Assembly: GCF_000001735.4 (NCBI RefSeq)
Contig: NC_003074.8
Location: 16,623,261 to 16,687,260, forward strand
Direction: 5' to 3'
From: Arabidopsis thaliana
Taxonomy: Eukaryota > Streptophyta > Magnoliopsida > Brassicales > Brassicaceae
Length of the DNA stretch: 64,000 nt
Shown piece by piece: positions 8,887 through 63,638 of the stretch. Position 1 is the stretch's first letter. Every line of letters begins with the position of its first letter. Under the pieces are notes generated by a model that did no database searches, was not told the origin of the DNA, and saw only the letters and a list, made by a program, of their open reading frames with translations. A program made the translations under genes and the position numbers.

Positions 8887-9179
8887 TCCTTATAGTCATA
8901 GTCTTTGCTTTTTATTTGTCTCTCTTTCATTATGCACTACTCTAAAGACAATAATATTCATTGTTATCTTTGGTTCTGTTTTCATAAGAGCCCTGATTTG
9001 TTATTACAACATGATCCTTATTCTCTTTTAATCACAGACACAAAAACCATGTATAAACAAAAAAAATATTTAGACATTTCTGCTACATCTTGAGTGTTAC
9101 ATAAATAAAAACTTGTTTACAACAGAACTGATAGAAAGTTTAAACATTAATAAAGAAATGTGAAGCACATTGTCCAATG

Positions 9180-11228
9180 TCATCTTCCATCACCATATAT
9201 AATGGTGTGAGAAATGAACATTGAGTTGTTAGCAGAGGAAGGAGAGGCTGATGGTCCTGAAACTGATGAAGTCACTGAACTAGAAGTAATTGCCAAGGAA
9301 GGTAAACCCATTAACACCGGAGTTGAAACTCCGATCCCGGGAGTATTTGGAGAGAACTCAGGCAATCTTTGGTGTCTGTTTATGTATTGGACCACTTGTT
9401 CCATGTTAGGTCTTGCTTCTGGTATAATGCTTGTACAAAGCAACCCTAGCTTCAGAACCATTTCAACTTCCCCGGGTACAAATTTACCTCTCAGTCTTGT
9501 ATCCACAGCATTGACTAGAGAACCTTCTCTCCAGCATTCACAAACCCACTTGACCAAATGTCGTTTCTCAACCGGCATCGCAGGATCAAATGGTCTTCTC
9601 CCACATGTTACTTCAAGCATGAATGCACCAAATGCATACACATCTGTTCTAGTGGAAGTTCCTGTTGACGTTAGCTCGAGCGCCATGTAGCCTATGGTTC
9701 CTACAGCTGCAGTTGCAGAGAGGTTAGACCCATGATCATCAAACCTAGCCATTCCAAAATCTCCTAAAAACCCTTGGAGATTTCCATTTAACATGACATT
9801 AGAAGCTTTGATATCTCGGTGTAAAACAACTTGACTAGCTCCTGTATGCAAGTAACAGAGCGCAGATGCGATATCTCTCAATATTGATACTCTTTGAGAC
9901 CAAGAAAGAGGCGGTTTATCACCGTGAAATAAGTACTGATCAACACTACCTCCTTCCATGTACTTAGAGACCAGCAATAACTCGCCTTTTCGCCTACAAT
10001 ACCCGAGAAGAGGAACCAGATTCTTGTGTTGTAAGCTTCCCATTGTCACAACTTCAGCCACAAACTGTTTCATCCCTTGCTCTGCATCGTGTGATAGTCT
10101 CTTCACAGCTATATCTCCTAGAATAGGCAGAGTACCTTTATACACTTCTCCAAAACCTCCTCTTCCAAGACGACCATCTTTGTTAAACCCTCTTGTTGCT
10201 TTATATAAAGATTTGTATGAATAACGAAGTGGACCATATGGCTTTTCCCATGGCTCTCTAACTTCTGCATACTTTTTTCTTCTGTAAAGATAAAATCCTC
10301 CTACCACCACCATTACTATGATAGCGAGTATAATCAATAGCACAATAAGCAGAGGAGATGTTTTCTCCGGTTTCTTGGGACGTGGAACCGTGGGAAGTTT
10401 AGAGATGTCAAGACTCTGTAGTAATGCTCTGTTTCTGCTGAAACTCCATCCTAAGATGTATTGATAACTAATCAATGAACCAGTCGCAGCCGAAAACCCT
10501 ATGAATGCTTTTCGATCCGGGAAGATTGCGGTGAGATTGATAGTTATTGACAAAAGAGGCTTACTTGGCTTCTGAGTTTTAAGAGGTGCTAAAGTAACAT
10601 TGAGTAGAGTATCTTCATAATCAATCCATACCTGAATAGGATCTCCACTCAAGAGTTTCAAGCTTTTGTTCTTCCCTTCTTTATCTGAATAATAAGAAGC
10701 TGAAGCAGATTCCACAGACTGGAGGCTGTTTTCGTCTATACCAACATGGTTTTTGTCTCTATCATCAAACTCTGCGCTTTGGACCGTATCAAGCTCAATA
10801 GCTAAAAGGTGAGAAGAAGGAGAACCATTAGTTGAGATGTTGAAGAGTCCTAAGTACTGAGTTGGATCTGCTTGTGTAAGATCCATTGAAGATGATAGAA
10901 CAAAAGCAATCCCGTGACCACCATCAACTCCTGGCTTAGGGACAAGAGCGCAAACGAAATGAGTCGAGAAAGAAGGAGATTGAGATGAAGCAGAACCGAA
11001 TTCGAATGGTCGGTTGAAGAAAGCATGACCCTTTTGTTGAGTCGTGGCGTTTGTTAGCTGCAAAAGTCCATCTTGTAGGAATTTTGCAGAACCGTCAAGG
11101 TTTAGATTGGTTTGGTCTTGGTTAAAGCCATTGTAGATGAAACTTAAGTCTTGTTGACTTGAAAAAGAAATAAGATTAACAAAGCAAATCAAGAAGAGAA
11201 GAAGAAGGAGATGCAATCTTTGAGCCAT
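9180..11228 (-). CDS. LECRK-I.1: L-type lectin receptor kinase, clade I, copy 1
   Basis: Plasma-membrane receptor kinase encoded in one exon. The frame opens at 11249, but the ATG at 11228 ([16 protein letters not shown]) sits directly before the signal peptide and matches its paralogues, giving about 682 residues. The legume-lectin ectodomain begins with [11 protein letters not shown] and contains [13 protein letters not shown] and NHVGIDEN. A transmembrane helix ([23 protein letters not shown]) is followed by a basic stop. The kinase domain has [10 protein letters not shown] (glycine loop), IAVKRL (lysine), [11 protein letters not shown] (catalytic loop) and GDFGMARF. The APE motif reads ALE. 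Its C-terminal tail is Ser-rich and ends GDGR. Arg precedes Asp in HRD, so it is an RD kinase. Nearest relative is copy 2, now 13 kb away because a transposon lies between them. The ligand is unknown. Confidence 0.95.
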
Positions 11229-11569
11229 TGGTAATGGTAAAAAGAACACAAAGACAAGTTTTGTTTAGGTTCTGAGTTTCGAAAATCAAACAAGTTCTGG
11301 TTATAAGGGAACGGCTTCAAACGCAATTTTCTACGTTCTAAGTCCACGAAAAATATTCCCTGTATGTGACAAAAGAGTTGACATTGGACTTTTTGATTAT
11401 ATATAACCGTAATAATTACTCTAAAATACTATTTTTCTTCGTTTTAAAAAAAAATCTGCTAAAACTCCTTGAGAAAAGTATATGGTCTACTCGTCTTTTA
11501 AGTTTTAACAATGACAAGTCGGGATTAAATTAAAGCGAAATAACCTCAAAGCAAACCATTATTGGTTTT

Positions 11570-11710: not shown

Positions 11711-12590
11711 ATTGGTCCACTTTAAAGATGTATCCAAATGATTTCTATTTTTTTTTAATAGAAATAAATGAATGATAGTAACAATTATAAAAATGCAGCC
11801 GAGAAAAGCAAGCAAATATGTGAAAATAAAGATCGTACAATTTCCAAATGAAATGTTATCATCTAGGACATTAATTTGGCCTACGCATTCAAATTTCGAT
11901 TTGGTTTGATTCTAGTTTCGGAATTTAGAACTGGTCCACTTAAAAATATCGAAATGATTTGTACTTAAAAAAGAAGAAGCAAGTAGATGATTGATACTTG
12001 ACCCAAAAAGAGATGATTTATAGAATTTATCAAGCAATCCACAACAAATGTCAATGTGAAAATTAAGATCATTCCAAAGCAAAAACATTCTTATGTAAAT
12101 AATACCAAAAACTAACTCTTATGTCACTAATGTCATTTTTTTGGAGTAGCTTAAAATTTAATTTTGGATAATAATTGCGTCGTTTCTACAACCGACTAAT
12201 TTGTAAAAAAATTATAAGGTTTACTACAAAGATAAGTTTTCAAAGTCGTTACTTTCATTTTCTTAAAACATTGCCAATTCAAAAGTAATAAACAATATAA
12301 TTACTATTGTTTAGTATTCAAGTTTATAAAATTTGATAAATAATATATCCAAACACGTTTTCTTAATAACACTCCAATTTTTTCTTAATGTATAATACTG
12401 TAAAACTATTTTTAAAAATGTATATAAAATTATACTACATATATTTTAAATTTCTTAGAATTGATCCGTATTTTTTGATTTGCAGACTTAATGGATTGGA
12501 GTGTTTTACTATATCGCTTGTATTTGTGAATCAGTTTATTCATTCCGGTTGGACCAAAACAAAAGAAAGAAATTTCGAGTCCTGATCAAC
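11711..12590. other. Intergenic region left of the Mutator-like element
   Basis: AT-rich, with no recognised gene. A 65-codon open frame at 12388-12585 has no recognisable domain and stops just before the inferred transposon end. Confidence 0.5.
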
Positions 12591-12599
12591 AATGCCACT

Positions 12600-13270
12600 G
12601 AACCGGAAATTTGAATCCGGCGTGCCATCTTTTGATCTGCATGCCACTCTTGTAGTGGATAATATCTATTTACCTTTAATGAATTATATCAATTAATTTT
12701 AAAAGATAAATCAAAAACAAAATCCAAATCGAAATCGAAGTAATCAATTCCGACCCAACCCAATTAATTCCGACCCAATTCATTTAATTCGAGCCGACAT
12801 TTAATTCCGACGAGATAGGCGATTTCCGATTAACTTCCGACATCGGCGATTTTCGACATTGGCTCCGTCGAGTCTGGGGAGCCTTTGCTAGGTCAGCTAA
12901 TCCAATTCTCCGGCCGTCGATTTCTCCGGTGCTGCGTGCTACGTGAGTCGATACTGTTGGATCGAATTCTTTATCGATCTTTGCTGCGGCTAATCTGGAA
13001 ACGATCCTTCTTTAGTTCTTCCATCTCCTGTAAGTATTATAGTTAGTACAATGTAATTGAATTGAATCAATGTGTAAGCAGCATCAAACCATGGACGACC
13101 TGAAATTGAATCAGACACTGATACATCTCGTGGTTCAACTGGTACTAATATATTGTTTATATTTGTAGGAGGCGATGAAGAAGAGGATCTAGACGAACCT
13201 ACACTTTGACTATGGAGGGTAATATACAGCAGACCATGAGTGGAGTTGCAAAAATTCAATATACGGTATA
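12600..13270. other. Left non-coding arm of the Mutator-like element
   Basis: Contains a second GCCACT copy near 12645, a stretch of repeated CGACCCAA/TTAATTCCGA units (about 12750-12800), and a GC-richer leader from 12840 to 13000 with possible 5' untranslated exons of the transposase gene. No separate gene was recognised. Confidence 0.45.
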
Positions 13271-15575
13271 GTGTTTAAGACATCATCTTTGGAGAGAATA
13301 ACATATGCGGATTTAATAGATAAGATCTGTAGAAAGATTGCTCTAGGTGGTGAGAAAAGGAATCTGAAATTGAGTTACAAGATATCTAAAGCATGGAGAG
13401 AGTCTTATATTGTAGATAATGAGGATGTGTTGATATATTTAACGTCATTGGATAAAGAGGGATTTAGACCTGTTTTGCATGTAGAGTTATGCAGTGATTT
13501 GGAAAGTAATAATAGCCAAGTTCCAATAGTAGAGCGAAGAAGTTCATGCGGTGTGAATTTTGGGGAATTGGCTGCCAATGTTGTAATGGTTGCGGATGCA
13601 AATACAGGAATTCTGAGTACTAATGAACCTATTATTGAACTAGAGGAACAGCGTGAGACAGTTAGTGAACCTATGATGCTAGAGAATGGAGTTTCTGAAA
13701 CTGTTATTGAACCGCTGATGATAGAGTGTGGGGTTAATGAAGATTCTGATAATGATTATGTTAGGGAAGAATATGTTCATCTGGCACGTCCGATACAAGA
13801 AAGTGTGGCTGCCGTTGTCAAAGAATGGGAAGATGGTATTGGTGATTTAGTAGGTCAAGAATTTCGTTCTAAGGAGGCAGTATGGGATTTGATTAATAGA
13901 GCTTCGAAAGAGGAAGTGTTTGGTGTGAAAACTATTAAATCTGACACGGGCCGTCTTATGTTAGAATGCAGTCAAGCATCTAAGGGTTGTGATTGGTATT
14001 TAAGAGTTACAAAAACTTCTGAGACAGATTTTTGGTGTGTGAAGAAACACACACAAATACATAAATGCTCTCGGTGTCCGGAGGCAACTAGATATGAAAA
14101 ACAAAAAGGCACACCGCGATTAGTAGCAGATGTGTTGCATGAGGACTATCCGGGTCTTCTTAATACTCCGAAACCTAAACAAATAATGAGTATTGTTAAA
14201 GGAAGACTTGGTTTGGATTGTTCATACTCCACAACTTTAAGAGGAAAAAAAAAACATGTTAGTGATGTGAGTGGGAGCCCTGAAACTAGCTACAAGTTAT
14301 TGTTTGCTTATCTGCACATTTTAAGGTCTGTGAATCATGGGACAATAACAGAAGTGGAATTGGATGCAGATGACAGGTTTAAGTTCCTATTCATCGCTTT
14401 GGGCGCAAGCATTGAAGGGTTTAAGGCAATGAGGAAAGTTATAGTGATCGATGCAACTTTTCTGAAAACCATATATGGAGGGATGTTAGTTATTGCAACA
14501 GCTCAGGATCCTAATCATCATCATTACCCCATTGCGTTTGGTGTAATTGATAGCGAGAATCATGCTAGTTGGAACTGGTTTTTCAGAAAGTTGAATTCCA
14601 TTATACCGGATGACCCGGAATTGGTTTTCATAAGGGACATACATGGAAGCATCATCAAGGGAGTCGCGGATGTGTTCCCGAAGGCATCACATGGACATTG
14701 TGTATGGCATTTGTCTCAAAACATTAAGAAAATGCTGGCAGGTGACAAAGAAGCAGGTATGGCCAAATTTATGGAATTAGCTCATATTTATACAGCGACT
14801 GAGTTCAACATTAGGTATGCAGAATTTAGGAGAAAGCATCCTAAAGTAGCCACCTATCTGGATCGGGCAATTGGGATTGAGAAATGGGCTAGGTGCTATT
14901 TTCAGGGAGACAAGTACAACATAGATACTAGCAACTCCGCAGAGTCTATGAACGCAGTGTTTTCAGAAGTAAGGAAGTACCATCTGTTACCGATGATAGA
15001 TGCGATTTTGGAGAAGTTTTCTGAGTGGTTCAACACACATCGCAAAGATTCCGCGTCTGCATCGAACACAAGGCAAGTGGTGCCTGTTGTGGAGAATATA
15101 TTACACACGCGCTGTCCAATTGGTGCAAAGCTAAATGCAACTGAACTAAACAGCTTCCGACAAGAATACAACGTAATTGGAAATGATGGTTTTTCTTATT
15201 TGGTGGACTTGGAAAGGAATACTTGTTCTTGCAGAGAATTTGATATAGACAAGTACCCGTGCGTCCATGCTATAGCTGCAGCCATAAAGCGATCTAAGAT
15301 GGATTTGAATAGCCGTTCAATCTTAAATAGCCGTTCAATCTTGAATAGCATATTACAGAACGATTTATGTGGTGCCTCATCAGGCTCACTGGTTCTTTCC
15401 TCCTGATTATGTGGAGAAGGTCGCAAAACCGCCGGATTACACTCCAAAAAAAGGAAGGAATCAAGAAACCCGGTTCCCATCCACAGGTGAGAAGCGCCGA
15501 AAGAAGACTAATAACAAAGCTACTCCTGGCATCAACTTGGAGAGGTGGTTGCAGCCTGAAACCAATGATGATTGA
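13271..15575 (+). pseudogene. MURA-type (MULE) transposase, interrupted near its 3' end
   Basis: The main frame (13271-15406) encodes about 711 residues. It has an N-terminal PB1-like segment (ITYADLIDKICRKIAL), a MuDR DNA-binding module (FRSKEAVWDLINRASKEE to WCVKKHTQIHKC), and an RNase H-fold DDE core with Asp in VIDATF (about residue 393) and Asp in FIRDIHGS (about 455). A candidate Glu lies in SNSAES. A SWIM zinc finger (CSCREF... CVHAIAAAIK) follows. The frame opens with GTG, and homologous residues continue upstream (EWSCKNSIYG), so the true start is uncertain. Near 15350 homology moves to another frame, where the normal MURA tail (QAHWFFPPDYVEKVAKPPDY ... ERWLQPETNDD) runs to a stop at 15575. 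This implies one frame-changing indel just after an in-frame 18-bp duplication (15311-15346). Probably inactive. Confidence 0.85.
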
Positions 15576-15589
15576 CGTTAACTCGTCAA

Positions 15590-15830
15590 CTAGTACAAGA
15601 AGTTCAACTACGATAAAGTCTTTGTGTGTAAATTTGTGTTTCTCGGAATTGTCAAATATTGTTCGACATGTTCAATTAAGAACAATCCTTTGTTTTTAAA
15701 TTTGTGTTTTCGGAATTTTGAAGCATAGTTAAGTTTTTTAGTTCAACAGAATTGCCAAACATAGTTCAACAGGTTCAACTATGAACCAGTCGTTGTTTGG
15801 CAAACCTAGTACAACAGGTTCATCTGGGTC
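15590..15830 (+). repeat. Cluster of GTTCAAC-type motifs after the transposase
   Basis: AGTTCAAC or GTTCAACT occurs at least five times (for example near 15600, 15740, 15760, 15772), always in the GTTCAA orientation on the plus strand. A block with CTAGTACAACAGGTTCA near 15806 recurs near 17438. Confidence 0.6.
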
Positions 15831-16039
15831 AACTATAAATACGGGTGGCATCCCAGTCAACGCGTCAGTTGAAATACCAATCGTCGCGTCGGTTGACAGG
15901 TGGCACTGCGAGTACCAATCGTCGCGTCGGTTGGAATATTATTTAAGACAGGATTACAATCGATTTTACACCATTCATATTTCATCCTATCCAAAAAAAG
16001 AACCCACCCCACTAATAAAGGAAGCCGTCGTTTGTCAAC

Positions 16040-17251
16040 ATGGATGGATATCATTCTGTTTCCGAACTTTGTCCGACTATCAGTGGATGGATTATTTGCG
16101 TTTTCGTTGTGAATGTGTTCAAGAAGTTTGTGGCACCGGATGAGTTCGAACTGGGCGTCATATTGGCAGATCAAACGGTTATATATTGCGAATATGTTTA
16201 ATTTTGTTTCTTTCACATAACTTGCATGTATATAGTTAAAATTATTTGGTGTAGGGTCCCCGTTCCCGAATCAAGGCTACCATTCCTCGTCGTCTTGCGT
16301 CATTTTACTTTGATCGAATACGAGAATATGAGTATGAGTGGATAATTATCACTAATTTCTCGGTCCGAAACGACGCTGAGTCTGTGAGAGCAACATCCCA
16401 TGACTACCAGATATGGTTTATGGAACAGACTATTGTTACTAAAGCTTTGAAAACGGATGCACTCTCGTTTTGGAATTTTACTCCTTTCGAGAACATCATA
16501 GAGAAGACGGTTAACAAGAATGTGTTGGTCGGTGAGTTATTTTGACAATTTTATAGTATTTTCTTTGAGAAATTGTACGAATACTTACTTCTATTATTAT
16601 ACACAAGATGTGGTAGGTGCGATTATTTGGCAGAGCCGAGTGACCGAAGGCATCGACGGTGTGAAGTTTTCTCTCAAGATATTGAATCAGCAGTAAGTTC
16701 AAATGGTTACTTTTTTGGGATTAGTTCAAATGGTTCAAATGATATAGTTTAAACGGTTCACCTATTTTTAGTTCACATGGTGCACCTATTCTAGTTCAAA
16801 TAGTTCAAATGCTATAGTTCACATGGTGCACCTACTCTAGTTCAAATGGTTCAAATGCTATAGTTCACATGGTGCACCTACTCTAGTTCAAATGGTTCAA
16901 ATGGTTATAGTTCACATGGTTCACTTGGTCTATTCTGATGGTTCAAGTGCTATAGTTCAAATGGTTCAGTAGACCTGGTTCAGATGGTCATGTTCACAAT
17001 TTCTGATCAAGTAAATAATTTCTATGAACTGCAGCAATAAAGTTCTCTATTGTGAAGCACACAATCAACAAGCTTTGGACTTTCAAGCTCACTTTCGGAG
17101 TCTTTGTACTCCGAGAATTGTGGTTGTACTCGTTTGCTGGCGTGTGAGCGGTCATCCTAAACCGAAGCTTGTGAGTCATGGCCCCGTGTCGAAGGTGTTT
17201 GGTAATCTGGAAATTCCGGAAGTTGATGAAATTTATAATGTAGTATTTTAG
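16040..17251 (+). CDS. RPA-like OB-fold (DUF223) protein carried by the transposon
   Basis: Four exons (16040-16195, 16255-16531, 16608-16692, 17035-17251) join in frame to 735 nt, 244 residues, with standard GT-AG borders. The product starts MDGYHSVSELCPTISGW and has VFKKF and VILADQT, then IKATIPRRLASFYFDRI, WIIITNFSVRNDAESVR, the DYQIWFMEQTIVTKA block and LSFWNFTPFENI. That order is typical of plant DUF223 proteins related to the large subunit of replication protein A (single-strand DNA binding). It covers about one to two OB folds and lacks the RPA zinc-finger C-terminus. The third intron (16693-17034) is built almost wholly of the element's GTTCAA repeats. The frame is intact although the transposase is not. 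It may be an accessory transposition factor, perhaps the VANB slot of VANDAL elements (inference). Confidence 0.75.
16695..16995 (+). repeat. Left repeat array, GTTCAAATGGTTC orientation (inside intron 3 of the OB-fold gene)
   Basis: Short units TAGTTCAAATGGTTC, CTATAGTTCACATGG and TGCACCTACTCTAG alternate, with an imperfect 45-48 bp superunit (CTCTAGTTCAAATGGTTC near 16836 and 16882). The 15-mer TAGTTCAAATGGTTC is the exact reverse complement of the unit in the right array at 20540-21140. Confidence 0.85.
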
Positions 17252-17254
17252 TTG

Positions 17255-18358
17255 TTGGGTACTTTGTATTATTCGTATAAACGAAGGAATTTGTAGTTTT
17301 TGGGTACTTTGTATTATTCGTATAAACGAAGGAATTTGTAGTTTTTGGGTACTTTGTATTAGTTTTTGGGTACTTTATTATTTTAACTAATAAAACGTTG
17401 TTCTATGTTTCTTTTGTAATTCCCGAAATCTGTAAGCCTAGTACAACAGGTTCAGCCCGTTCAACTATAATCACTTAGTAAAATGTGTTTAACGATTTTA
17501 TAATATGTAGAAACGTTTGAAGTTTACTACTAGCTCAACAAAAAATCTACTATTACTATTAAAGTGTCATTGATAAATATTTTTTTATAAAAATTGAAAT
17601 CGTGGTATGTGTTCACATAAACAACCTCTTATATGATAAGGAGTAGTTACTATGAGATCACCTCAAATGAAGTAAATTACGTGAATATGGTCGTATATCA
17701 AATGTGATTCTGCCAAAACTTTCAATATGCAAAATAAATCACAGTTAGGTTGGGTTCGACATAGTTATCAAGTATGTACATTAAAGTTCAGCTGAAATAT
17801 ATGAAAACAGTGAAAAGTACATCTATGTGTATGATAGTTCAGCTGTACAACTATGTGTAAAATTCCAACTGATGAACTTGATAATTCCAGCTGGCATACC
17901 GCATAATTCCAGCTGGCATACTGTATATCAACTCAAGGAATAAATGAAATAAATGTCTGGATTTATCAAGTCAAGTTAGATTTTGGTGGGTCCATATGTT
18001 TAAAGTTTTTTTTTTTAATGGTAGGGTTTTGAGGATTTTCATCTATATTTAATCATTTACTTGTGTGAAAAATCGAAAATTCGAGAAAACCCTCTGCTGA
18101 AGAAGACGGCGGCGATTCTTTAGCGGCGTCAAGTATTTTCCGGCGACGAGATTTTTCCGACAAACGACGTCATTTCTTCACAAGGTTAGATCTTTTCTAT
18201 TAAAGATATAGGGTTTATGTGGTGTATTTTAGTTCAGATCTAGGGTTTATAATAGTCAAGATCTAGGCTTTATTTTAGTCAAGATCTAGTGTTTATTTTA
18301 GTCAATATCTAGGGTTTAGTCAAGTATTTGATAGTTTAATATTTTGTATTTGACAGAC
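17255..18358. other. Non-coding centre of the Mutator-like element
   Basis: Contains a short tandem repeat near 17255-17370 (units with TTTTTGGGTACTTTGTATTA and ATTCGTATAAACGAAGGAA), a CTAGTACAACAGGTTCA block near 17438, repeated ATTCCAGCTGGCATAC near 17880-17925, and a repeated TCTAGG(G)TTTAT motif at 18235-18320 just upstream of the GRF gene. No gene was recognised. The last part probably holds the GRF promoter and a 5' leader. Confidence 0.5.
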
Positions 18359-18739
18359 ATGCCTATCTCTTTTAACGGAAGCTCTGACTCCTCTCCTAGT
18401 GAGAAATCTGACGGTTTCGACTACTACAATGCAATACGGGACGGGAATTGGGGCATTCCGACTAAGTGCTACTGTGGAAGAGACGTTGAAAAGGGTAATG
18501 TGGTTGGTGGCAATCTCCACGGGAAAACAAGATTCCGATGTCCACTAAATCTGACTGAGGTGGATGGAGAACACTTGCAGAAGTGGTGGGAGGAAGCCAT
18601 TGAAGAGGAGTTTTCGAAGTACTATAGTCGGAAGGACAAGCGAGAAGAAGGACCTCCTGCTTGGCAAGTTCCGATGTTCGAGCCCATCCACGAGAAGATA
18701 CGCATTATGAATGACCGGATCACTGATCTTGAGACCTAA
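18359..18739 (+). CDS. Small GRF-type zinc-finger protein carried by the transposon
   Basis: The frame begins at ATG 18359 (MPISFNGSSDSSPSEKS) and encodes 126 residues. Residues about 33-75 match the GRF zinc-finger pattern of plant nucleic-acid-binding proteins: GIPTKCYCGRDVEK, then GKTRFRCPL, then EHLQKWWEEAIEEE. A basic and acidic helical tail follows (EKIRIMNDRITDLET). After the TAA the same frame continues for 25 codons (LFKELRSMRSAISILRARGG) to a second stop at about 18814. The present stop is therefore probably a premature one, from a Gln codon change, and the ancestral protein was about 152 residues. Role in the element is unknown. Confidence 0.6.
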   Translation: MPISFNGSSDSSPSEKSDGFDYYNAIRDGNWGIPTKCYCGRDVEKGNVVGGNLHGKTRFRCPLNLTEVDGEHLQKWWEEAIEEEFSKYYSRKDKREEGPPAWQVPMFEPIHEKIRIMNDRITDLET

Positions 18740-18809
18740 TTATTCAAGGAACTACGATCAATGAGGAGTGCTATTAGTATCCTCCGAGCTAGAGGAGGGC
18801 GTGGTTCTC

Positions 18810-19030
18810 GTTGAACCATGTATGAACCATGTGAACCACGTTGTTTTCATTATGCAAGTATTTAATTTTGAACCATGTGAAGCACTTTGTTTTAATTAAT
18901 GTATGAACCTTCTGAACCACTTTGTTTTAAATATGCAAGTATTTATGATTTATTACGATGTGCAACCAAAATATACAGTTGAACAGGGTAATGTGACGAA
19001 AGATGAACCATTTGAACTAAACTGTTTCGA
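18810..19030 (-). repeat. Scattered GAACCATTTGAACTA-type motifs right of the element's centre
   Basis: Several TGAACCATGTGAACCAC units at 18812-18925 and one full GAACCATTTGAACTA at about 19006-19020. These are in the reverse orientation compared with the motifs left of about 17.5 kb. Confidence 0.6.
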
Positions 19031-19519
19031 ACCAGATGAACTATCTCTACACGCACAATTCACCGGAAACCACGGGCTTCGTCAACCCCAGATGACACTG
19101 ACACTGAACTTGAACTCATCGGAGTAGTTAGAGAAGGCACTCACAAAACCCTAAATCAATTTTGGAATTCGAATGTTTCGATTTAGGGATTGATTGAAAT
19201 CGTTTTTGTCTTTTCAAATTTTGAATTATGAATTTTGCATAAAGCGGACTCTATTTTTTGAAATTTATTGGATTTTGTTTTTGGTAATTTATAAGCCCAT
19301 TAAAAATGGCAAAAGGCCCAAAAGGAATACTTATTTTAGGGATGCTAAAACCCCTAGTAAAAAAAGGCTCAAGCCCAGCCCATTTTCTTAATCGTTCGGC
19401 GTGAAAGTTCAGATGGGACAGGCGAAGAGTCACGTCTATTCAATTTACTCGTCTGCTTTTAATTTTACACGAAACCAGAGAATTCAAGAAATTGAAACTA
19501 TTCACTGGTGAAGTTCATC

Positions 19520-20372
19520 ATGGAGAGTCCTGATCATCGACAGACCATTCAGAGGGTAAGAACGTCGGCGCCTTCCTCTCTGGCGTCTGCGACTCCAACA
19601 TCACCGGATTGTTCTTCTCCACCACCACCTGAGTGGTTAGTTGACATCGGGTTTATCCGCCGACATTTGGGGGTTCCGCTTCACCGTGTAATCCCCCTTG
19701 GAGAAGTGGAGCCGACGGTACCGTGGATGAGGTCTCCTTTACCAGGAGATATGGGGCCGGATTTTGTTCCAGCCCCAAGAGATTTCGTCCCAGGTCAAGT
19801 TATTCATCCCGGAAAGTTTTTTGGTCAAACGAATCTATCCAATGAGATGCATGACACATGTCTAAGGTTCATTCAAAAGGTAAATGTAAGAATAGTGTTT
19901 CGTTGTTGCTCGTTTGGTTAGGTTTAGGGTTTAATGAAATTTCAGGTTTAGGGTTTAGTTGTGTTGATTGTTGGTTATATTAGGTGAATCATATAGTGGT
20001 CGTATAGTTGTATTGATGGATATTTTGCGAGAAATTAACATTTCTATTGTTGGACAGGTGGATAATCAACACCAAGCTTATAGAAGGCGTCACCGCCAAC
20101 TACTCATTAAGTTGCAAGACCTGGAGAGAGGTATGAGGCGGTTGGAGGTTCATCCGAAAGACTGGGTGAGATACGGTTTCGACAAAGTTGCTGACATTCC
20201 ACTGCCACTAAGGAAATGGTGTGTTGAGCACGATGGATCGTCACCGAATTGGTCGTTTTTCACGGAGCCAGATCCCATTGAGGAGGACGATGAACCAGAT
20301 GATGCGACCTCCTCCTACATGAGAGTGGATGAGCCTCCACGCGAGTATCCTCCTGACTCTCTCTTTCAATAA
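19520..20372 (+). CDS. Unrecognised two-exon protein carried by the transposon
   Basis: Exons 19520-19879 and 20058-20372 (GT-AG, phase 0) join to 224 residues. The start at 19520 gives MESPDHRQTIQRVRTSAPSS, a Ser/Pro-rich leader to about residue 38. It continues with EWLVDIGFIRRHLGVPLHR, many prolines, then a charged helical segment (QAYRRRHRQLLIKLQDLERG) and an acidic tail (EPDPIEEDDEPDDATSS). I do not recognise a domain. The low-complexity ends and central coiled-coil-like helix could suit a structural or DNA-associated partner of the other element proteins, but this is only inference. The frame looks intact. It is followed at once by the right repeat array. Confidence 0.55.
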
Positions 20373-20539
20373 ACATTATGCCTTTGTTTTGCTTAAGTTT
20401 GTAAGATAAATCTAAATCTAAATTGTGGTTTTAAATCTTTATTTTGCTAACTATCTATGTTTTGAATACAATGTATGAATCTAAATGTTTGAATATAACT
20501 ATCTGTGTTTTGAAAGGAAATTTTGCTAACAATTATATA

Positions 20540-21140
20540 ATCAGTCGAACGGATGTTTGGTCGAACCATTTGGACTTCTTAGTCGAGCCATTTGGGCTTT
20601 AGTCGAACTATCTGAACTATTTGAACTAATCAGTCGAACCAAATTGAACCATTTGAACAAATTAGTCGAACCGGATAATCCTAGTGTTGAACTATCTGAA
20701 CTATTTGAACTAATCAGTCGAACCGGATGAACTATATAGGTCGAACCGTTTGAACTAACCAGTCAAACACATTTGAACCATTTGAACTAATCAGTCGAAC
20801 CAAATTGAACACATTTGAACTAATCAGTCGAACCGGATGAACTATATTGGTCGAACCGTTTGAACTAACCAGTCGAACACATTTGAACCATTTGAACTAA
20901 TTAGTCGAACCAGATAATCCTAGTGTTGAACTATCTGAACTATTTGAACTAATCACTCGAACCGGATGAACTATATAGGTCGAACCGTTTGAACTAATCA
21001 GTCGAACACATTTGAACCATTTGAACTAATCAGTCGAACCAAATTGAACCATTTGAACTAATAAGTCGAACCGACTAATCCTAGTGTTGAACTATCTGAA
21101 CTATTTGAACTACTCAGTCGAACCAAAATAAACAGTTGAA
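20540..21140 (-). repeat. Right repeat array, GAACCATTTGAACTA orientation, with a higher-order period
   Basis: Roughly twenty-five short units of AGTCGAACC, ATTTGAACCATTTGAACTA and GAACTATCTGAACTA. A larger unit starting TAATCCTAGTGTTGAAC recurs at 20676, 20915 and 21076 (spacings 239 and 161). The core unit is the exact reverse complement of the core of the left array at 16695-16995. Confidence 0.88.
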
Positions 21141-21260
21141 CCTAAAAGACCAATTACAAGCCAAATGTTTAAAAATTCACAAAAGTAAACATCATTACAA
21201 TGCAAATCAAGCCAAACGTTTTTAAATAAACCAATTGTTCCACAACTACCAGTAACTGGA

Positions 21261-23912
21261 TCAATCTGCCTTCCGCATTCTCTTACGCTTCTTATCATCC
21301 GCCACAAACGGTGATGTAATAAGGCGGGATGCTCCCCTTGTTCGCTTCTTTCCGGTTTCTATTACAGGTGGCACCTCCTGCTTCTTCTTGCCCCCGCCAT
21401 TCTTCTTCGCTTTTCCTTTCACCTCTTTCTCCGTCGTGTTTGTCTCCTTATTACCTGCATACATTTTAAAACAAAACCTAAGTCATATATTCACATTTTT
21501 ATACCCAACAGACATTAATTATTATACTTACTGTTTTCTGCAACCTCTGGAGAATGTTCACTGATCAGTATATCCCGTTGTTGCTTGTTTCCGGTGGTCA
21601 CATAACCATCTGGCGAAGCAAATAACACGTCATCGTCTCTTGCATGCCCATGTTGACTTGCCTCCTCTGTTTGCTTCCCATGTTCCCTTTCCTTCAGATC
21701 TGCCACAAATAACTTAATAGACTGCACTCTCACATCAATGGCATCAATCTTATCTTTTGTTTCATCAAAGCCTTTGGTCATCATCTGCGTCAGTGAGGTT
21801 ATAGATGCCACAAACTGTATCTAAATCAGGGAATCGAGGAGGGACAGCAGTCTCGGGGACCTCATTCTCAATCTCATGGACTTCCTCATCCGAAATCTCA
21901 TTTACAATACATCGAGAAGAAATGTCCATCTCACACATTCCTTTCCACCATATCCTACTGTTCTCTACTAATAGTCGCTCTCTCCAACTGTCAATAACAA
22001 TATCTATTGGACCGCAGTCATCATCAACATCATCGTCTAAGAGATCTTTCAACAGATATTTCTCATGATAGGCAGGTACCAAAATGCTTGGAAAATCCTG
22101 TTAAAAGAAATTCATTTAGCAATCAATCAATCAATCTCATGATAGACTAGACACACAATCAAGTAAATACAGAAACTCTAACCTTAGTATTCCCAAGCTC
22201 TTTATATATAACTTCCAACGGGACACCTTTCATGCTACATTCTTTAAACTTATGCTTGCACATCCTTGGACAGTCACTCAAAGCGGAGCGTACATGGACT
22301 CTAAATTTCAGTCCAAGCTGTGGAATAGCCTCATAAGGCAGAATCTACAAATAACAAAACAATGTTAATATCATAAAACCTGTACATTACACCTTATACT
22401 CATATAATAATCATAAATTACTTACCTCAAGAGGCACAATGAATCCACTGAAGCAAGGTTGAGCTTTTGGTTTCACGAAACCATTCATGTTCTTCATCAT
22501 TTTCCTTATTCCTGCCATACATTCCAAAAAGGTGTAACGGCCCCACGGAAACGTCTCGCACGCATTCAAATCGCCAACAATCCTTAACAGAAACTCTTCA
22601 ATGTTTCCATCATTCTTTGCACCAGCTTTTACTACCTTGACCAAGAAGTACAACAGCACTAACTTCAACCTATCTGAACCATGCTTCATCTTCGAGCACT
22701 TAGCAAGAACATCTACAACCTTTATCCCAGATTCTTTTTTAAATATCCTCTTCACAAAGTTAATATTCCCCATTGTATTCATTTCTTTTGGGTAACTGTG
22801 GCAATCAAACCCACTTAACAACGCATGCTCTTTAATGGAATACCTAATAGGTACTCCATTTACCACAAACCAAGCCTCCTCGAGCAAACTGTCTTCACTG
22901 TGCGCAGCATAAGCACCCACATGCCTTGCGTCTGGTGGTTAGGCTCCTGAGGCATGTGGAATATATGCTGGAACTGATCGTGTCTTTTGAACCATACAGC
23001 TTCTTCTTTAAACTTCCTCTCTATCAGTTCAATTGTCTGCGTGACCTGGCACCTACTGCTTATCTTGCACACTTTGCCGTATTCTGAAAAAGGAAAATGC
23101 ATGGTCTGTTGCGGCAGTGGCTGAGAATCTAAATCATCATCCTCCAAACCATCATTGCCAGCCTCATCTTCCTCTGTCTCTTTAACAGAAACCTCATCAT
23201 CCTCGGCCTCATAAGTATCCTGCAAATTCAATAAACATTAACCAATTGAAGAATTCATATGTACCAAACTAACAATTCAAATGTACCAATTGAACTAGTT
23301 CCATCAAATTACTTAAATCAAACATGTGTCACAGATGAACTAGTTGAACATTTCTAACTAATACGAGAACTAATACTCAAACAAAACAAATGTGTGTCAT
23401 AGAGATTCAATTGTATATACCTGACGATTAACGTTTTCTACCCCTTCTTTTGGAATTGTATTCACCATTTCCTCCTCCTCCAACTCCTCCCCATTCCCGT
23501 CTTTCGCTTCTTCGAATTGTTGAATGACAGCGTCAATTAGAGGTTTCAAAGTTGTCCCTGTCTGATCCTCTTCAATTTCGGCGGTTCCTTTAGGAGAAGC
23601 CTCATCACCAACACGCGGTTCCTCCATAGCCTTTTCAATTTCAGCGGTTCCTTTAGGAGAAGCCTCATCACCATCACGCGGTTCCTCCATAGCCTTTTCA
23701 ATTTCAGCGCTTTCTTTTGTAGTATCATTCGCCGCAACATCTCGTGCTGCTGGTTCTGTCGGACCTGCTGGTTCGGTCGGAACCAAGTCGGCGGCATCTC
23801 CGTCGTTCTCAATTTCTGAAGTAACTTGTTCTGATGTCGAAACTTCACCGGACAACGACTTCTCCGTCGAATCATATACAGGGCCAGCAATACCGTCTCT
23901 AACACGAGCCAT
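21261..23912 (-). pseudogene. DUF1985-type protein gene of the transposon (possible VANC-like factor), interrupted
   Basis: Multi-exon minus-strand gene. Exon 1 (from 23912, MARVRDGIAG) is Glu/Thr/Pro-rich and carries a 25-residue tandem duplication (AEIEKAMEEPR(D/V)GDEASPKGT). Exon 2 (23220 downwards) is acidic, then matches the DUF1985 fold: FSEYGKVCKISSRCQVTQTI, RHDQFQHIFHMPQEP, EEAWFVVNGVPIRYSIKEHA, LLSGFDC. Later exons hold ILPYEAIPQLGLKF..., DFPSILVPAYHEKY and a C-terminal basic tail (KKKQEVPPVIETGKKRTRG ... RMRKAD). Homology changes frame near 22945 and again near 21815, so this copy is broken at least twice. The Ulp1-like peptidase that often follows DUF1985 is absent. The acidic N-terminus and basic tail fit a DNA-associated protein. 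The VANC assignment is inference. Confidence 0.65.
23265..23355. repeat. Short motif cluster in the first intron of the DUF1985-type gene
   Basis: Contains AATTCAAATGTACCAATTGAACTAGTTCC and GATGAACTAGTTGAACATTTC type motifs related to the larger arrays, in mixed orientation. Confidence 0.4.
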
Positions 23913-24218
23913 CAAACTATTAGACGAATCAAGAATTCGTCGAAAAATCGCGAAAGGCGAGAAATTATGAATTTGATTTTGGAAAATTTGAATTGAATGA
24001 GAGCAGAAACGGTTTGATTTTAAAAATTAGGGATTTCGCTTAAGTTTGGAATGGGTTTTAGGTCGCTGGGCATGGATCTTAATTGGATCGGATACTTTGT
24101 TGGGTCGTCTGGGTTTTTGGTCTTTTGCCAATTATTTGAATTTTCTCTCATTTATTTTTAATTCGACAAAAAATAGGAATTAGAAGAGTCTGGTTACTTT
24201 TTCGCAGATAGTGGCATT

Positions 24219-24660
24219 CTCTCTATCGGAGCTAGTATAGAACAAGCAACTGTATCTCCCGTGGCAATTTTCTTCTCCAATCACAAGTTGATAAGGTTCG
24301 TAATTCATATTTAATTTGAGAAAATTGCGACGTTTGATTAAATAGCTTGAATTTAACAAAGGATTCTTCGTATTGAATTTTCAGATAAGGTTTTCGACAA
24401 TGAGCCTCAAAGATCAGAAAGCAAAATTTGAGTTCAAGGTAAATACCCAATCAGATCGCAAATTGATTGACTAATAACAAACCATCATGAAATGTACTAA
24501 GTTTCACAAAACATTTGAGTGTTACAGAAATATAAGTAACTGAAATAAAAACATAACTGATACAAAATTTAAACATTAGAGACAATAAGACAGATAAGGT
24601 GGTTTGGTACTAAGATCTGAATCATGTACAACAAATAAATGTGAAGAAAGTTGTTAAATT
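24219..24660. other. Spacer with an exon-like fragment right of the transposon
   Basis: Near 24365-24440 a plus-strand stretch looks like a spliced exon: TTTTCAG, then an ATG frame MSLKDQKAKFEFK, ended by a GTAAAT donor. I do not recognise the protein. 24480-24660 is the 3' flank of lectin-kinase copy 2 and resembles 9070-9175 behind copy 1 (TTGAGTGTTACA(T/G)AAAT), so the array duplication included the 3' UTR. Confidence 0.4.
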
Positions 24661-26717
24661 TCATCTTCCATCACCATTTAAGATGGTGTGAGAGATGAAC
24701 ATTGAGTTGTTGGTAGAGGGAGGAGAGACTAATGGTACTGATGCTGATGAGGTTACTGAAGTGGAAGTGATTGCCAAACCAGGTATTCCCATTACCATCG
24801 GAGTGGAAACTCCGATTCCGGGAGTATCTGGAGAGAAATCAGGCAATGCTTGGTCTCTGTTTATGTATTGCATCACTTTTTCCATGTTAGGTCTTGATTC
24901 TGGTATAATGCTTGTACAGAGCAAACCGAGCTTCAGAACCATTTCGACTTCCCCGAGTGTAAATTTATCTCTCAACCGTGTATCTATAGCGTCAACTAGA
25001 GAATGTTTCCTCCAGCATTCACAAACCCATTTGACCAGATGTCGTTTCTCTACTGGCATCTCAGGATCAAATGGTCTCCTACCACATGTTACTTCAAGCA
25101 TGAATGCACCAAATGCATACACATCGGTTTTTGTGGAAGTTCCTGTTGATATTAACTCCAGAGCCATGTAACCTATGGTTCCTACAGCTGCTGTTGCAGA
25201 GAGGTTAGCTCCATGATCATCAAACCTAGCACAAAATCTCCTAAAAAAGCTTGAAAATTTTCGTTTAACATGACATTAGAAGCTTTGATATCTCTGTGTA
25301 AAACAACTTGACTGGCTCCTGTATGCAGGTAACAGAGTGCAGATGCAATATCTCTCAGTATTGCGAGTCTTTGAGACCAAGAGAGAGGTGGTTTATCGCC
25401 ATTAAACAAGTATTGATCGACGCTACCTCCTTCCATGTACTTAGAGACCAGCAATAACTCGCCTTTTCTCCTGCAATACCCGAGAAGAGGTACTAAATTC
25501 TTGTGCTGTAAGCTCCCCATTGTCACAACTTCAGCCACAAACTGTTTCATGCCTTGCTCTGCATTGTGTGATAGTCTCTTCACAGCTATATCTCCTACTA
25601 GAGGCAGACTTCCTTTATACACTTCTCCAAAACCGCCTTTTCCAAGACGTCCGTCTTTGTTAAACCCTTTTGTTGCTTTGTACAAAGATTCATAGGAATA
25701 ACGAAGCGGACCATATTCTTTTTCCCATGGCTCTCTAACTTCTGCATACTTCTTTCTTCTGTACAGATAATATCCTCCAAGACCCCCGATCACTACGAGG
25801 GTGAGTATAACCAAAAGAACAATAAGCAGAGGAGATCTTTTTCTCTTCTGTTCCGTGAAAAGAGGAACTGTGGAAAGTTCAGAGATGTCAAGGCTCTTTA
25901 ATAATCGTCTGCTTCTGCTGAAACTCCACCCTAAGATGTATTGGTTACTAATCGATGATCCAGTTGCAGCCGAAAACCCGACAAAAGCTTTTCGATCCGG
26001 GAAGATTGCGGTGAGGTTGATGGTTCTTGACAAAAGAGGCTTACTTGGTTTCTGATTTCTTAGAGGTGCTAAAGTAACATTAAGTAGAGTATCTTCATAA
26101 TCGACCCATACCTGAATAGGATCTCCACTCAAGAGTATTAAGCTTATGTTTTTCCCTTCTCTGTCGGAATAATAGGAAGCTGAAGCAGAAACGACAGATT
26201 GGATTCTGTTTTCGTCTATACCGACATGGTTGTTATCCATGTCATCAGTCTCTGCGCTTTGGACCGTATCAAGCTCGACAGCTAAAACGTGAGAAGAAGG
26301 AGATCCGTTAGTTGATCTGTTGAAAAGTCCTAAGTAACTACTTGCATATGCTTTTTTGAGATTATGTGCAGATGATAGCACAAAAGCAATCCCGTGACCA
26401 CCATAAAATCCTGGCTTAGGGACAAGAGCGCAAACGAATTGAGTAAAGAAGGAGAGAGACTGAGATGAAGCTGAACCGAAATCGAATGGTCGGTTGAAGA
26501 AGGCATGACCCTTTTGCTGAGTCGTGCCATCGGTTAGCTGCAAAACTCTTTCTGGAGATTGGATTCTTGCAAAGCCATCAAGGAGAAGTTCATCACCAGC
26601 TTGGTCTTGGTTAAAGCCATTGAAGACGAAACTTAAGTCTTGTTGACTTGAAAAGCAAATCAGATTAACTAAGAAGATCAAGAGGAGAAGAAGAAGATAA
26701 AATCTTTGAGCCATTGG
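24661..26717 (-). pseudogene. LECRK-I.2: L-type lectin receptor kinase, clade I, copy 2, frameshifted in the kinase domain
   Basis: Close paralogue of copy 1. The start at 26717 ([14 protein letters not shown]) follows the family. Signal peptide, legume-lectin domain ([31 protein letters not shown]), transmembrane helix ([20 protein letters not shown]) and the kinase N-lobe with [16 protein letters not shown] and [11 protein letters not shown] are intact. At the DFG motif (about 25228) four bases present in copy 1 are missing. The frame then reads [10 protein letters not shown] and stops at about 25182, losing DFG and the C-lobe. The remaining kinase half ([16 protein letters not shown] to NGDGR) is still fully open in the other frame from 25167 to 24661, so the lesion is probably recent. 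A truncated receptor with lectin domain and half a kinase could still be made. Sequencing error is possible but less likely. Confidence 0.85.
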
Positions 26718-26739
26718 TATTGAAAAAACCAGAGACAAG

Positions 26740-28702
26740 CCTCGTTTATTTTCTACGTTCCAAGTCCAATAGAAATATTCTCTCCAGGCAAGAAAGAGTT
26801 GACTTAGAACTTCTTAAGATGTATAACCTGATCATTACTCTCAAAATAATAGTTTTGTACGTTTTAACAATGTCAAGTCGGAACTAAATTAAAGCGAAAT
26901 ACCCTCAAAGCGTTTACCAATTACCATTATTGGTTTAAGACAACCTTGAAAAGATAGACTCTGCATCTTTTTCAATATCGTTTAGCTCTAAAACAGCTAT
27001 ACAACTTTGGAGACGAAGGTGTGTTGAGTTCCGAGGTCATGTGGAAGAGAAGAGAGGATAACGTGCTTAAGAAGCATCCCGTTAAAGACCCTACTTTGTC
27101 AAACCCATTTCTTGCTCTATGCACGAACCGGTTCACATTAAATGATCGAACTCACGAAATGATTTGTACTTTTGTTCTTAACGAAAAATAAATGGATGAT
27201 TGATACGCAAAAAAGGCAAGCAGATTAATCTCAACCCTGACAGAAACATGAGGCAGTGTAGAAAAGATCATGGAGTCAGAGTTTTTCCAGTGCCTGATTA
27301 GCCTCCATAGATCTTCTAAGTCCTTTGATCCTCTTGAGTATAAAGTGCCCTTATACTCTGTGATTTAAAATTTTTGGGGTAAGGTATGCTTTGTTTACTT
27401 AGGAAATAAAGTTCTTTTAGTTCAAGATGGTGTGTGATGAGAAATAACCTTTTTGGAGCAAGGTTTTATCACTTTTTAGTTCTAAGTGTTGCAGTTTGCT
27501 GGGTCAAAATTTGGAGATTTCCATGAAGTCCTCAAAAGTTCTACTAATAGTCTATGGTCTACTGATAAGATGGTGAGCGAGAAGCTGTCATGACATATGC
27601 ATAAGATCAGATTCGAAACTTAGGTTTTTCGTTTTTCCGTTCAGCTTTTCACAATTGCTCCCATGTTCGAACTTCTCCTTTAGTAGATGAACATTTTGTA
27701 CCTTTCGCTTTATTTCCTTGCTTGTAAAGTTAATGTTTTCTCTCTTTACTTAGTCTTCTTTGGTTTGTAAAGTTATCTACGTGTATCATTTCTTGTACTT
27801 GTACATGCCTCTCCAAAATGGTTCTCCATGGATGGATGATGGGCTTGTTAATATATATATATCAGTCACTCTTGGAAAAAAAAAAAAACTGTGGCTCTAT
27901 GTATGATTGATCAACTAAAATGGGAAGAACAAAAGGAAAATAAGACACAAAAAGAAAGAAAAAAATGTTGATTGAAATTGAAGGAGTAATTTTCAAAGTC
28001 CCAATGATACATGTCTCACCATTACAATAGAGAAACATTTCATTAGTGGCCTCCAAATAAATTTCTTACACAATCTTTTTTGTTATTAATGTTAAAAAAC
28101 ACAAAAAAAAAAAGAGATTAATTATTTGTTTTCTTTTTATAGTAACTACTAGTTAAATTATTTTGTTTCTTAAAGTAAACTATTCTTACCTTTTTTTTGG
28201 GACTTTGTGTCTACAAAAAGTAGTGTAAAAAAAAAAGAAACAAAAAAATCGAAAAGTAATTGGAATATAAATTTGATAACAAAAGACCATATACATAAAA
28301 ACAACTAAACAAGTATAACAAATCCATAAATACGAATTAAAAATGAAAGAGTTAATTATAGAAAACTTTCCGATCTCTGAAGCTTCAACACCGTTTGTTC
28401 ATCCTTGTTCTCCGCCGCATTGTCTCTTTCCATGAGAGATCAATTTCTTCACAAAGAAGCTTCTTCTTCTTCTACTACATTCCTCTCAGCACCAATCTCT
28501 CTTTCGCATCTCAATTCGAAACGTGAGTATTTCCTTTTTCTCCATTCTCGAATCGAGCACAAGTCGAGTCTCGCAACAACACTTAACCTAGAATTGATGA
28601 TTCGGTATACAATTTTCCGGTGTGTATCGAGCTGATTCTCTGATGTAGAAGCCCTAATTTCTGTGTATATTTGATTTGATTCTCTTTTGTGATTGATTGA
28701 TT
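26740..28702. other. Intergenic region between copy 2 and the glycosyltransferase gene
   Basis: 26750-27130 is the copy-2 promoter and aligns with 11326-11720 upstream of copy 1 (TTCTACGTTC, AGAGTTGAC W-box core, AACGTGCTTAAGAAG). 27270-27366 has a 30-codon plus-strand open stretch (EFFQCLISLHRSS) that I could not place. 27850-28380 is AT-rich with poly-A runs. 28380-28702 is the probable 5' leader of the plus-strand gene, with an upstream ATG at 28431 and a splice-like GTGAGT near 28522. Confidence 0.5.
28431..28635 (+). promoter_or_regulatory. Possible upstream ORF / leader of the glycosyltransferase gene
   Basis: The leader has an ATG at 28431 (MRDQFLHKEASSSS) that stays open to 28635, ahead of the main ATG at 28703. 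A GTGAGT at about 28522 could be a 5' UTR intron donor that would remove part of it. If unspliced it could dampen translation. No peptide similarity was recognised. Confidence 0.3.
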
Positions 28703-62881: not shown

Positions 62882-63638
62882 CAGTGTTTTCACGCCCAAC
62901 CCGAACCGTCCGGTCCGACCGGTTAACCCGTGACCCGAACACTTTTCCGGTTTGGGTTTAGTGCTAAAACCCAACAAGTTCAAAACCGAAAAAACCCACA
63001 AAAACTCGCAATTAACCCGTGACCCGGTGAACCGGTTGAACCGGCCGGGTGTGGGTTTTAAAAAGTTCTCTTGATTTTACAATAAAATATGGGATTTTAG
63101 ACTTTATTCAATTATTTTTAAAAGTTTTTTCAGTTCTTAAATTCATTTGATGTTTTAGATTTTGTTGAACACTTTAAAATACCGCCTTAAAATTGAATCG
63201 AATGGTGAGAGAGACAACCGAGATTAGTTGTTTGAATTCACGATGTTTTATTAATTTATTTCTGTCATTGATGATCTCCTAATATATTTGTTACGGTGTT
63301 AGACATTTAGTTGGATTTCAAATTTTTAACCACTTTATTATTATTGTTTGATTTTTTCTATATATATATATATATATATATATATTTGGGTGTAAATGAT
63401 TTTATATTTTGTTAAACATAATATAATTTTATATTTGATTAAATATGATATGATTATTTTTGTTTTATATTTATAATACTAATTTTGTTTTTTATAAAAT
63501 ACTCTAAAATTTCTATTAATATTAAATTTATTAAATAAATTTTAACTAATTAACCTATGGTCCAACCCGGTTGACCTGATGACCCGGTGACCCAGAAGGT
63601 AGTCCGGTTCATCGTCCGGGTCGGGTTTAAAAACATTG
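62882..63638. mobile_element. hAT-type non-autonomous DNA transposon with perfect 8-bp target duplication
   Basis: 757 bp, flanked on both sides by CCTGTAAT (62874-62881 and 63639-63646). Ends are imperfect inverted repeats: CAGTGTTTTCACGCCCAACC on the left and CAATGTTTTTAAACCCGACC (reverse complement of the right end). The CA(R)TG end and 8-bp duplication are hAT features. The inside is non-coding and includes a (TA)n run at 63361-63384. It inserted at the broken end of the related copy to its left. Confidence 0.8.

Follow-up and report, generated by a model that had tools for sequence, protein, structure and literature searches.

Opposed arrays of a hexamer-pair motif as putative VANC target sites in a VANDAL-type element of Arabidopsis thaliana

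An 11.6-kb VANDAL-type Mutator-like element in Arabidopsis thaliana DNA (12577..24219, + strand, bounds from blastn alignment to genomic copies) carries arrays of one short motif that face forward in its left half and in reverse in its right half. It lies in the window, the whole 64,000-nucleotide stretch analysed here. Since the element encodes a protein with DUF1985 and DUF287 (VANC-type), both array sets are best read as putative DNA target sites of this anti-silencing protein of the family, which we consider probable (roughly 70%) from the sequence. The preliminary description had proposed a new VANC-type site set with a directional arrangement. The first proposal gains from the VANDAL parts, a near-private word, motif pairs outside the exon model and array sizes that vary between copies. 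The second is not supported as something special, as the arrangement is a new example of one already known in VANDAL elements. With its hexamer-pair word, five long copies of differing array size and clean strand layout, the family provides a test case for self-recognition by a transposon protein.

Features of VANDAL elements include terminal inverted repeats of degenerate sequence and target duplications of 9 bp. Near the ends of the window copy short inverted AATGCCACT/AGTGGCATT are present, and inspection of the end sequences revealed no clear target-site duplication. The VANA-type transposase (13213..15575, +) matches Pfam Plant_all_beta, MULE (E 1.8e-20) and SWIM (E 5.5e-11), as expected of the MULE-type transposase of VANDAL elements, and its region is 42-55% identical to the VANA region of five related elements. 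Three further genes follow on the plus strand: gene 2 (16040..17251, approximate model), with introns and DUF223 on two exons (Pfam); gene 3 (18359..18739), a small ORF with only a sub-threshold DUF730 match and relatives in other copies; and gene 4 (19520..20372), with Pfam DUF3287 in the second of two exons. The VANC-type gene (21261..23912, -), delineated by Pfam and frame reading, has an N-terminal repeated-peptide exon followed by DUF1985 (E 7.2e-23) and DUF287 (E 3.6e-23), both of which are annotated on VANC proteins in PMC5735166. In the window copy the VANC frame is shifted inside the DUF1985 exon region, and the VANA frame appears interrupted (longest frame 13223-15406, with a coding stretch downstream in another frame); both count against reading the arrays as VANC targets. 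The copy at C4:2.16 Mb has a single frame across the shifted stretch of VANC. No VANDAL number could be assigned to the family, a further point against this reading. A literature search of limited coverage found no paper joining VANDAL and GTTCAAATG, and none with three of VANDAL3, VANDAL5, VANDAL17, VANDAL20 and Arabidopsis.

The repeat unit is a hexamer pair, RGTTCR-NNN-RGTTCR (searched as RGTTCRNNNRGTTCR), with 29 occurrences in the element vs one, at 63028, in the remaining 52 kb; the 30 in the whole window compare with 0.18 expected per window (100 shuffles). The exact 15-mer of the preliminary description is found at 48 places genome-wide vs none for its reversed control, 43 of them in seven copies of the window element, two partial (counted from the listing), so that the word is nearly private to this family. 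Allowing up to two mismatches, AGTTCAAATGGTTCAAATG has 54 places in the genome vs one for the control, of which 39 are in family copies by our own count. A looser form of the pattern, RGTTCANNNGGTTCAN, is common across the genome (153 vs 44 for the control) and motif sites are also present in or beside other VANDAL-like loci, observations that count against a VANC-target role. Placement had been described as exclusively non-coding; this stands for the pairs, none of the 29 lying inside the approximate exon model, but not for single RGTTCA hexamers, 14 of 90 of which are within coding sequence. The motif is thus family-specific, short, dense, tandemly repeated and non-coding, as in VANC target arrays.

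The opposite orientation claimed for the two halves was borne out, with seven forward pairs on the left (15763-16968) and 22 reverse pairs on the right (18823-21111). Strand bias is complete for [AG]GTTCAAA, with 10 forward and no reverse copies left of 18.1 kb and none vs 18 to the right. Single hexamers are imperfectly segregated (left 31 forward and 9 reverse; right 6 and 44). The pairs form four blocks, none of mixed orientation, in keeping with the shared orientation of motifs within a region of VANC target arrays: a lone forward pair 3' of VANA (15763..15777, +); a forward array of six pairs within an intron of gene 2 (16696..16990, +), built of a 23-bp unit in a 46-bp higher-order repeat; a small reverse block of four pairs 3' of gene 3 (18812..19042, -); and a large reverse array of 18 pairs flanked by gene 4 and VANC, each with its 3' end towards it (20556..21142, -), with periods of about 22, 32, 110 and 239 bp. 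Counted block by block, single hexamers number 19 forward and 1 reverse in one main block, 28 reverse in the other, and 5 forward and 1 reverse in a small block. The impression that the 15-mer fills 15.6-17.5 kb was overstated, as exact copies number four forward (16722-16953) and five reverse (19005-21046) and six of the seven left pairs lie at 16723-16968, within 0.25 kb of intron. The element midpoint, 18398, does lie in the pair-free gap where orientation switches, but the coincidence is weak because this gap covers 1.9 of 11.6 kb, and a single orientation switch among four blocks is unremarkable. A role of the centre as a functional midpoint was not supported, other families switching elsewhere or more than once. 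A tie between motif and gene orientation was likewise rejected, since arrays of both orientations adjoin genes 2, 3 and 4, all on the plus strand. Distances between motifs, taken pairwise, show peaks at 10.8 bp for the right array and at 7.7 and 11.6 bp for the left one; helical phasing is given little weight because the spacing null ignores tandem duplication.

As targets of VANC, the tandem RGTTCA-type hexamers, 9 bp apart, would be recognised in introns and intergenic stretches of the element. The protein would bind where hexamers are dense, and its own family would be demethylated and freed of silencing with little effect elsewhere. Uniform orientation within each block may reflect growth by tandem duplication, and differences from block to block may reflect their separate expansion. 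The central switch would then be the junction of the intronic block with the blocks nearer VANC, requiring no functional device.

The tandem structure with its several periods would also fit neutral internal satellites without a binder, spread by slippage, and across the five long copies motif columns are not measurably better conserved than spacers (13/219 vs 77/892 variable; difference not significant, p = 0.21), which counts against a VANC-target role as well. We regard such an origin as unlikely, as the word turns up again in arrays whose repeat units otherwise differ, as well as in isolated small blocks, and none of its pairs falls in the exon model. The two main arrays share 17 12-mers, all 17 containing the motif's GTTC, and thus have the word and little else in common; higher-order periods are 46 and 92 bp in the left array and 110, 129 and 239 bp in the right. 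Origin by one inverted duplication was therefore rejected. The same comparison bears on the idea that a transcript spanning the opposed arrays pairs with itself as an inverted repeat, the resulting double-stranded RNA then entering a small-RNA pathway that silences the element. In its favour, one array aligns in inverted orientation with the other at 67% over 305 bp (blastn), and VANC target regions are enriched in RdDM targets (PMC10398659), but at this identity, about 3.8 kb apart and with 12-mers shared only at the motif, the arrays would make a poor hairpin, and we consider this very unlikely.

Other plant DNA transposons are known in which subterminal transposase sites are oriented. By analogy, the arrays could bind the VANA transposase or a small accessory protein (DUF223, DUF3287), all encoded by the window element, for transposition or transcription. 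The arrays, however, are internal, more than 3 kb from either end, with no motif pair nearer the ends, and it is VANC21 that binds the VANDAL21 motif and VANC6 that bound a motif-rich region (PMC5735166), which makes this alternative distinctly unlikely. VANC remains the favoured binder.

The block layout is repeated in four other long copies, A, B, C and D, which with the window copy make up the five long copies; D is included though its VANC region is partly missing, and B2 and E, as partial copies, are left out. Right-array pairs number 6, 11, 19 and 6 in A, B, C and D vs 18 in the window copy, a variation resembling that in VANDAL21, for which gains and losses of repeats have been reported (PMC5735166). 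Copy B2 has five reverse pairs only. Copy E, 70-85% identical by stretch (blastn) and lacking most of the left array region, has one forward and five reverse pairs, the forward pair sharing a block with a reverse pair.

Motif polarity around VANC was compared across eight elements from four families with three motifs, leaving out C1_14, a VANDAL-like locus without a DUF1985 match by tblastn. In the 2.2 kb on the 5' side of the DUF1985 exon, 36 sites vs 0 face one way, antisense to VANC (8/8 elements agree), and from VANA to the DUF1985 exon 35 of 36 sites face the opposite way in the six VANDAL21- and VANDAL6-type elements. Polarity might be conserved as part of the VANC system: the letters of the motif would vary between families and its strand at a given position would not, as though VANC loaded or spread directionally; the centre switch would be one form of this layout. 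We find this improbable. Several observations count against it: the window element is without a motif pair 5' of its DUF1985 exon; between VANA and VANC it has both orientations, a feature shared with two other families; and 18 sites out of the 36 depend on a motif whose reading strand was chosen by the analyst. Were polarity conserved across families with differing motifs, it would bear on how VANC, bound at short sites, frees a whole element from silencing.

About ten VANC systems in Arabidopsis, VANC1 and others, were reportedly described by Sasaki et al. in 2022 (EMBO J 41:e110070), with VANC specificity said to be set by motif sequence, density and helical periodicity. Arrays of known VANC motifs were not found in the window element, 10-28 kb of the window holding one YAGTATTAY and two AGTTGTMC. 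In VANDAL21 (Hiun), VANC21 binds YAGTATTAY (Hosaka et al., 2017, PMC5735166). The VANDAL21-type elements resemble ours in their MULE transposase and DUF1985 gene, in a short motif in non-coding tandem repeats and in mostly one-orientation blocks that switch along the element (2/2). They differ in the motif (0 YAGTATTAY in the window element), in a DUF1985 only 41-44% identical, in blocks at two places where the window element is without pairs, one upstream of VANA and the other 5' of the DUF1985 exon, and in the lack of a DUF223 gene by tblastn, whereas the window element encodes a DUF223 protein. The VANDAL6 group resembles ours too, with both DUF1985 (56-57% identical) and DUF287, AGTT common to both motifs, and block orientation switching in 4/4 elements read; again no DUF223 gene was found (tblastn), and the window element, whose main unit is the 9-bp hexamer pair, holds only two VANC6-type sites. 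The VANC6 motifs are AGTTGTCC/AGTTGTAC, and the region bound by VANC6 was rich in its motif (PMC5735166). As a control, an 8-mer enrichment scan recovered the VANC21 motif in 2/2 VANDAL21-type elements (AGTATTAC first in one, second in the other). For VANC6, three VANDAL6-type elements were scanned (C2_17 included); AGTTGTCC headed the list in one and was absent from it in the other two, which counts against the VANC-target interpretation. Comparison with related elements thus gave the same layout in four other long copies of the family, but also switching common to VANDAL21- and VANDAL6-type elements, the published VANC21 and VANC6 motifs changing orientation from block to block in all seven related elements counted. 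Because direction-switching sets occur in these related transposons too, the window element is a further example of a known arrangement.

The repeated word in the VANDAL-type element is best described as two RGTTCR hexamers 9 bp apart, RGTTCRNNNRGTTCR, and 30 such motif pairs occur in the window, 29 of them inside the element; 100 shuffled sequences averaged 0.18 and never held more than 2. The preliminary description held that the two halves carry the motif in opposite orientation, and this was borne out by the pairs: on the left side of 18.1 kb each of the 7 reads forward, and on the right side each of the 22 reads in reverse. By the 5′ ends of their sites, they form a single forward pair at 15763, a forward block of six at 16723-16954, and reverse blocks of four at 18837-19042 and 18 at 20618-21111. 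The left array consists of a 23-bp unit nested in a 46-bp repeat; the right array has periods of about 22, 32, 110 and 239 bp. Single RGTTCA hexamers segregate less cleanly (31 forward and 9 reverse on the left, 6 and 44 on the right). Restriction to non-coding DNA, also proposed earlier, holds for the pairs, with 0/29 in our own approximate exon model (6376 coding and 5267 non-coding bases), but not for the single RGTTCA hexamers, 14 of 90 being coding in that model. The motif copy that opens the left array (16693-16708) overlaps the presumed 5′ splice site of the intron of the DUF223 gene, gene 2 (GTAAGTTCAAATGGTT), and the array could have begun from this copy.

The motif is not comparably dense in unrelated DNA. 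In the 119.66 Mb genome searched, whose contig 3 contains the window at 16623261-16687260, the exact 15-mer is found at 48 places and its reversed control at none; by our count, 43 of the 48 lie inside seven copies of the element, two of them partial. A 19-base form with up to 2 mismatches has 54 places versus 1 for the control, 39 of them in copies of the family; among the remaining 15, five belong to or adjoin two other VANDAL-like loci, and a further three lie in one locus similar to the left end of the element. The looser pattern RGTTCANNNGGTTCAN is far less specific (153 places versus 44 for the control). Three sites similar to the motif lie at C4:2108000-2117000, adjoining sequence like that left end. 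A VANDAL6-type element (C2:1755000-1769999) has three RGTTCR pairs about 2 kb 5′ of its DUF1985 exon and a VANC6-type array in its middle. No paper in the literature library searched mentions VANDAL together with GTTCAAATG, though the motif may nonetheless be published.

The element spans 12577-24219, as bounded by alignment with other copies. Its genes specify a MULE transposase, a protein with DUF223 and two further small products, of which one carries DUF3287; the gene for a DUF1985+DUF287 protein lies on the minus strand. Such a gene set is that of a VANDAL element with additions. The VANC-type gene of the window copy has a shifted frame, two frames there aligning at 97% identity with a frame that is continuous in copy C, and the transposase frame looks interrupted as well. 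A 63-bp tandem repeat in the first VANC exon (23567-23717) codes for repeated peptides, which are also reported in variable regions of other VANCs (PMC5735166). About 530-610 bp present in copies A, B, C and D and in partial copy B2 are absent from the window copy at 19045-19049, where the flanking alignments overlap by 5 bp. The stretches 9149-11273 and 24630-26754, which flank the element, are 85% identical across 2.1 kb and have further relatives at 30.9-43.6 kb; we take the right one to be a lectin-receptor-kinase-like gene.

All four remaining long copies keep the forward, forward, reverse, reverse layout: A (C2:6.07 Mb; 6 pairs in the left array, 6 in the right), B (C3:14.10 Mb; 5 and 11), C (C4:2.15 Mb; 6 and 19) and D (C4:5.95 Mb; 4 and 6), the window copy having 6 and 18. 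Because of shared descent, these five copies represent one event, not five. Partial copies B2 (5 reverse pairs) and E (1 forward, 5 reverse) were kept apart.

The idea that this directional arrangement is special to the element did not survive comparison with its relatives. Published motifs were counted in related elements, each turned so that VANA lies left. The VANDAL21/Hiun and VANDAL6 elements are presumed to be such from their position and motif; the remaining type names are our own and follow DNA kinship (94% identity in the best stretch between the two VANDAL21-type elements; 97, 97 and 89% for the further VANDAL6-type elements). With F and R for forward and reverse sites, the VANDAL21-type elements read 3F2R, 5R, 1F2R, 3F and 2F2R, 4R, 3R, 3F. 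Two VANDAL6-type elements read 1F, 2R, 2R, 2F and 1F, 7R, 1R, 2F, and two more have forward ends and a reverse middle. The element at C5:9.56 Mb reads 1R, 1R, 5F, 2R, 5F, and in that at C3:5.28 Mb the sites upstream of VANA are 6R, those from VANA to the DUF1985 exon 7F/3R, and those past the exon 18F. Mostly single-orientation blocks that switch are thus seen in 8/8 comparison elements, and such blocks are common in this group. By hand count, 8 of the 16 possible orientation strings of four blocks switch once or not at all, so the single switch of the window element needs no explanation. No statement on orientation switching was found in the available text of Hosaka et al. (PMC5735166).

The motif counted in the C3:5.28 Mb element, which is VANDAL-like, is AGWWATAC and was derived from that element's own enriched words. 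Its 18 sites 5′ of the DUF1985 exon (C3:5277500-5287499) are spaced mostly 21 and 46 bp alternately, and three 9-bp-spaced pairs lie upstream of VANA; the array is a candidate for a further VANC motif.

Within 2.2 kb 5′ of the DUF1985 exon, 36/36 sites in the eight comparison elements are forward and none reverse (3, 3, 2, 2, 2, 1, 5 and 18 per element), a count that represents four related families and three motifs, with four of the elements being of one type and half of the sites coming from the C3:5.28 Mb element, where strand hangs on reading the motif AG-first. The window element has no motif pair in this region, and the intron there holds two single hexamers, at 23296 and 23341, both reverse. 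Between VANA and the DUF1985 exon, the VANDAL21- and VANDAL6-type elements have 1F and 35R, the window element 7F/22R, and the two other families 5F/3R and 7F/3R. One-way polarity 5′ of the DUF1985 exon as a regularity across related families is worth testing.

By analogy with VANC21 and VANC6, anti-silencing proteins with known target motifs, the arrays are most likely target sites of the family's own VANC, which would bind and demethylate there. Motif finding by 8-mer enrichment, controlled on elements with published motifs, gave a mixed outcome: AGTATTAC is the top word of one VANDAL21-type element and the second-ranked word of the other, AGTTGTCC heads the list for one of the three VANDAL6-type elements and is absent from the lists for the remaining two, and both VANC6 words are listed lower down in the C5:9.56 Mb element. 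In the window element, the highest-ranking words include some of TAGTTCAA type. The published VANC21 and VANC6 motifs and the motif described here all have AGT at the start, a likeness that would fit descent from one ancestral site.
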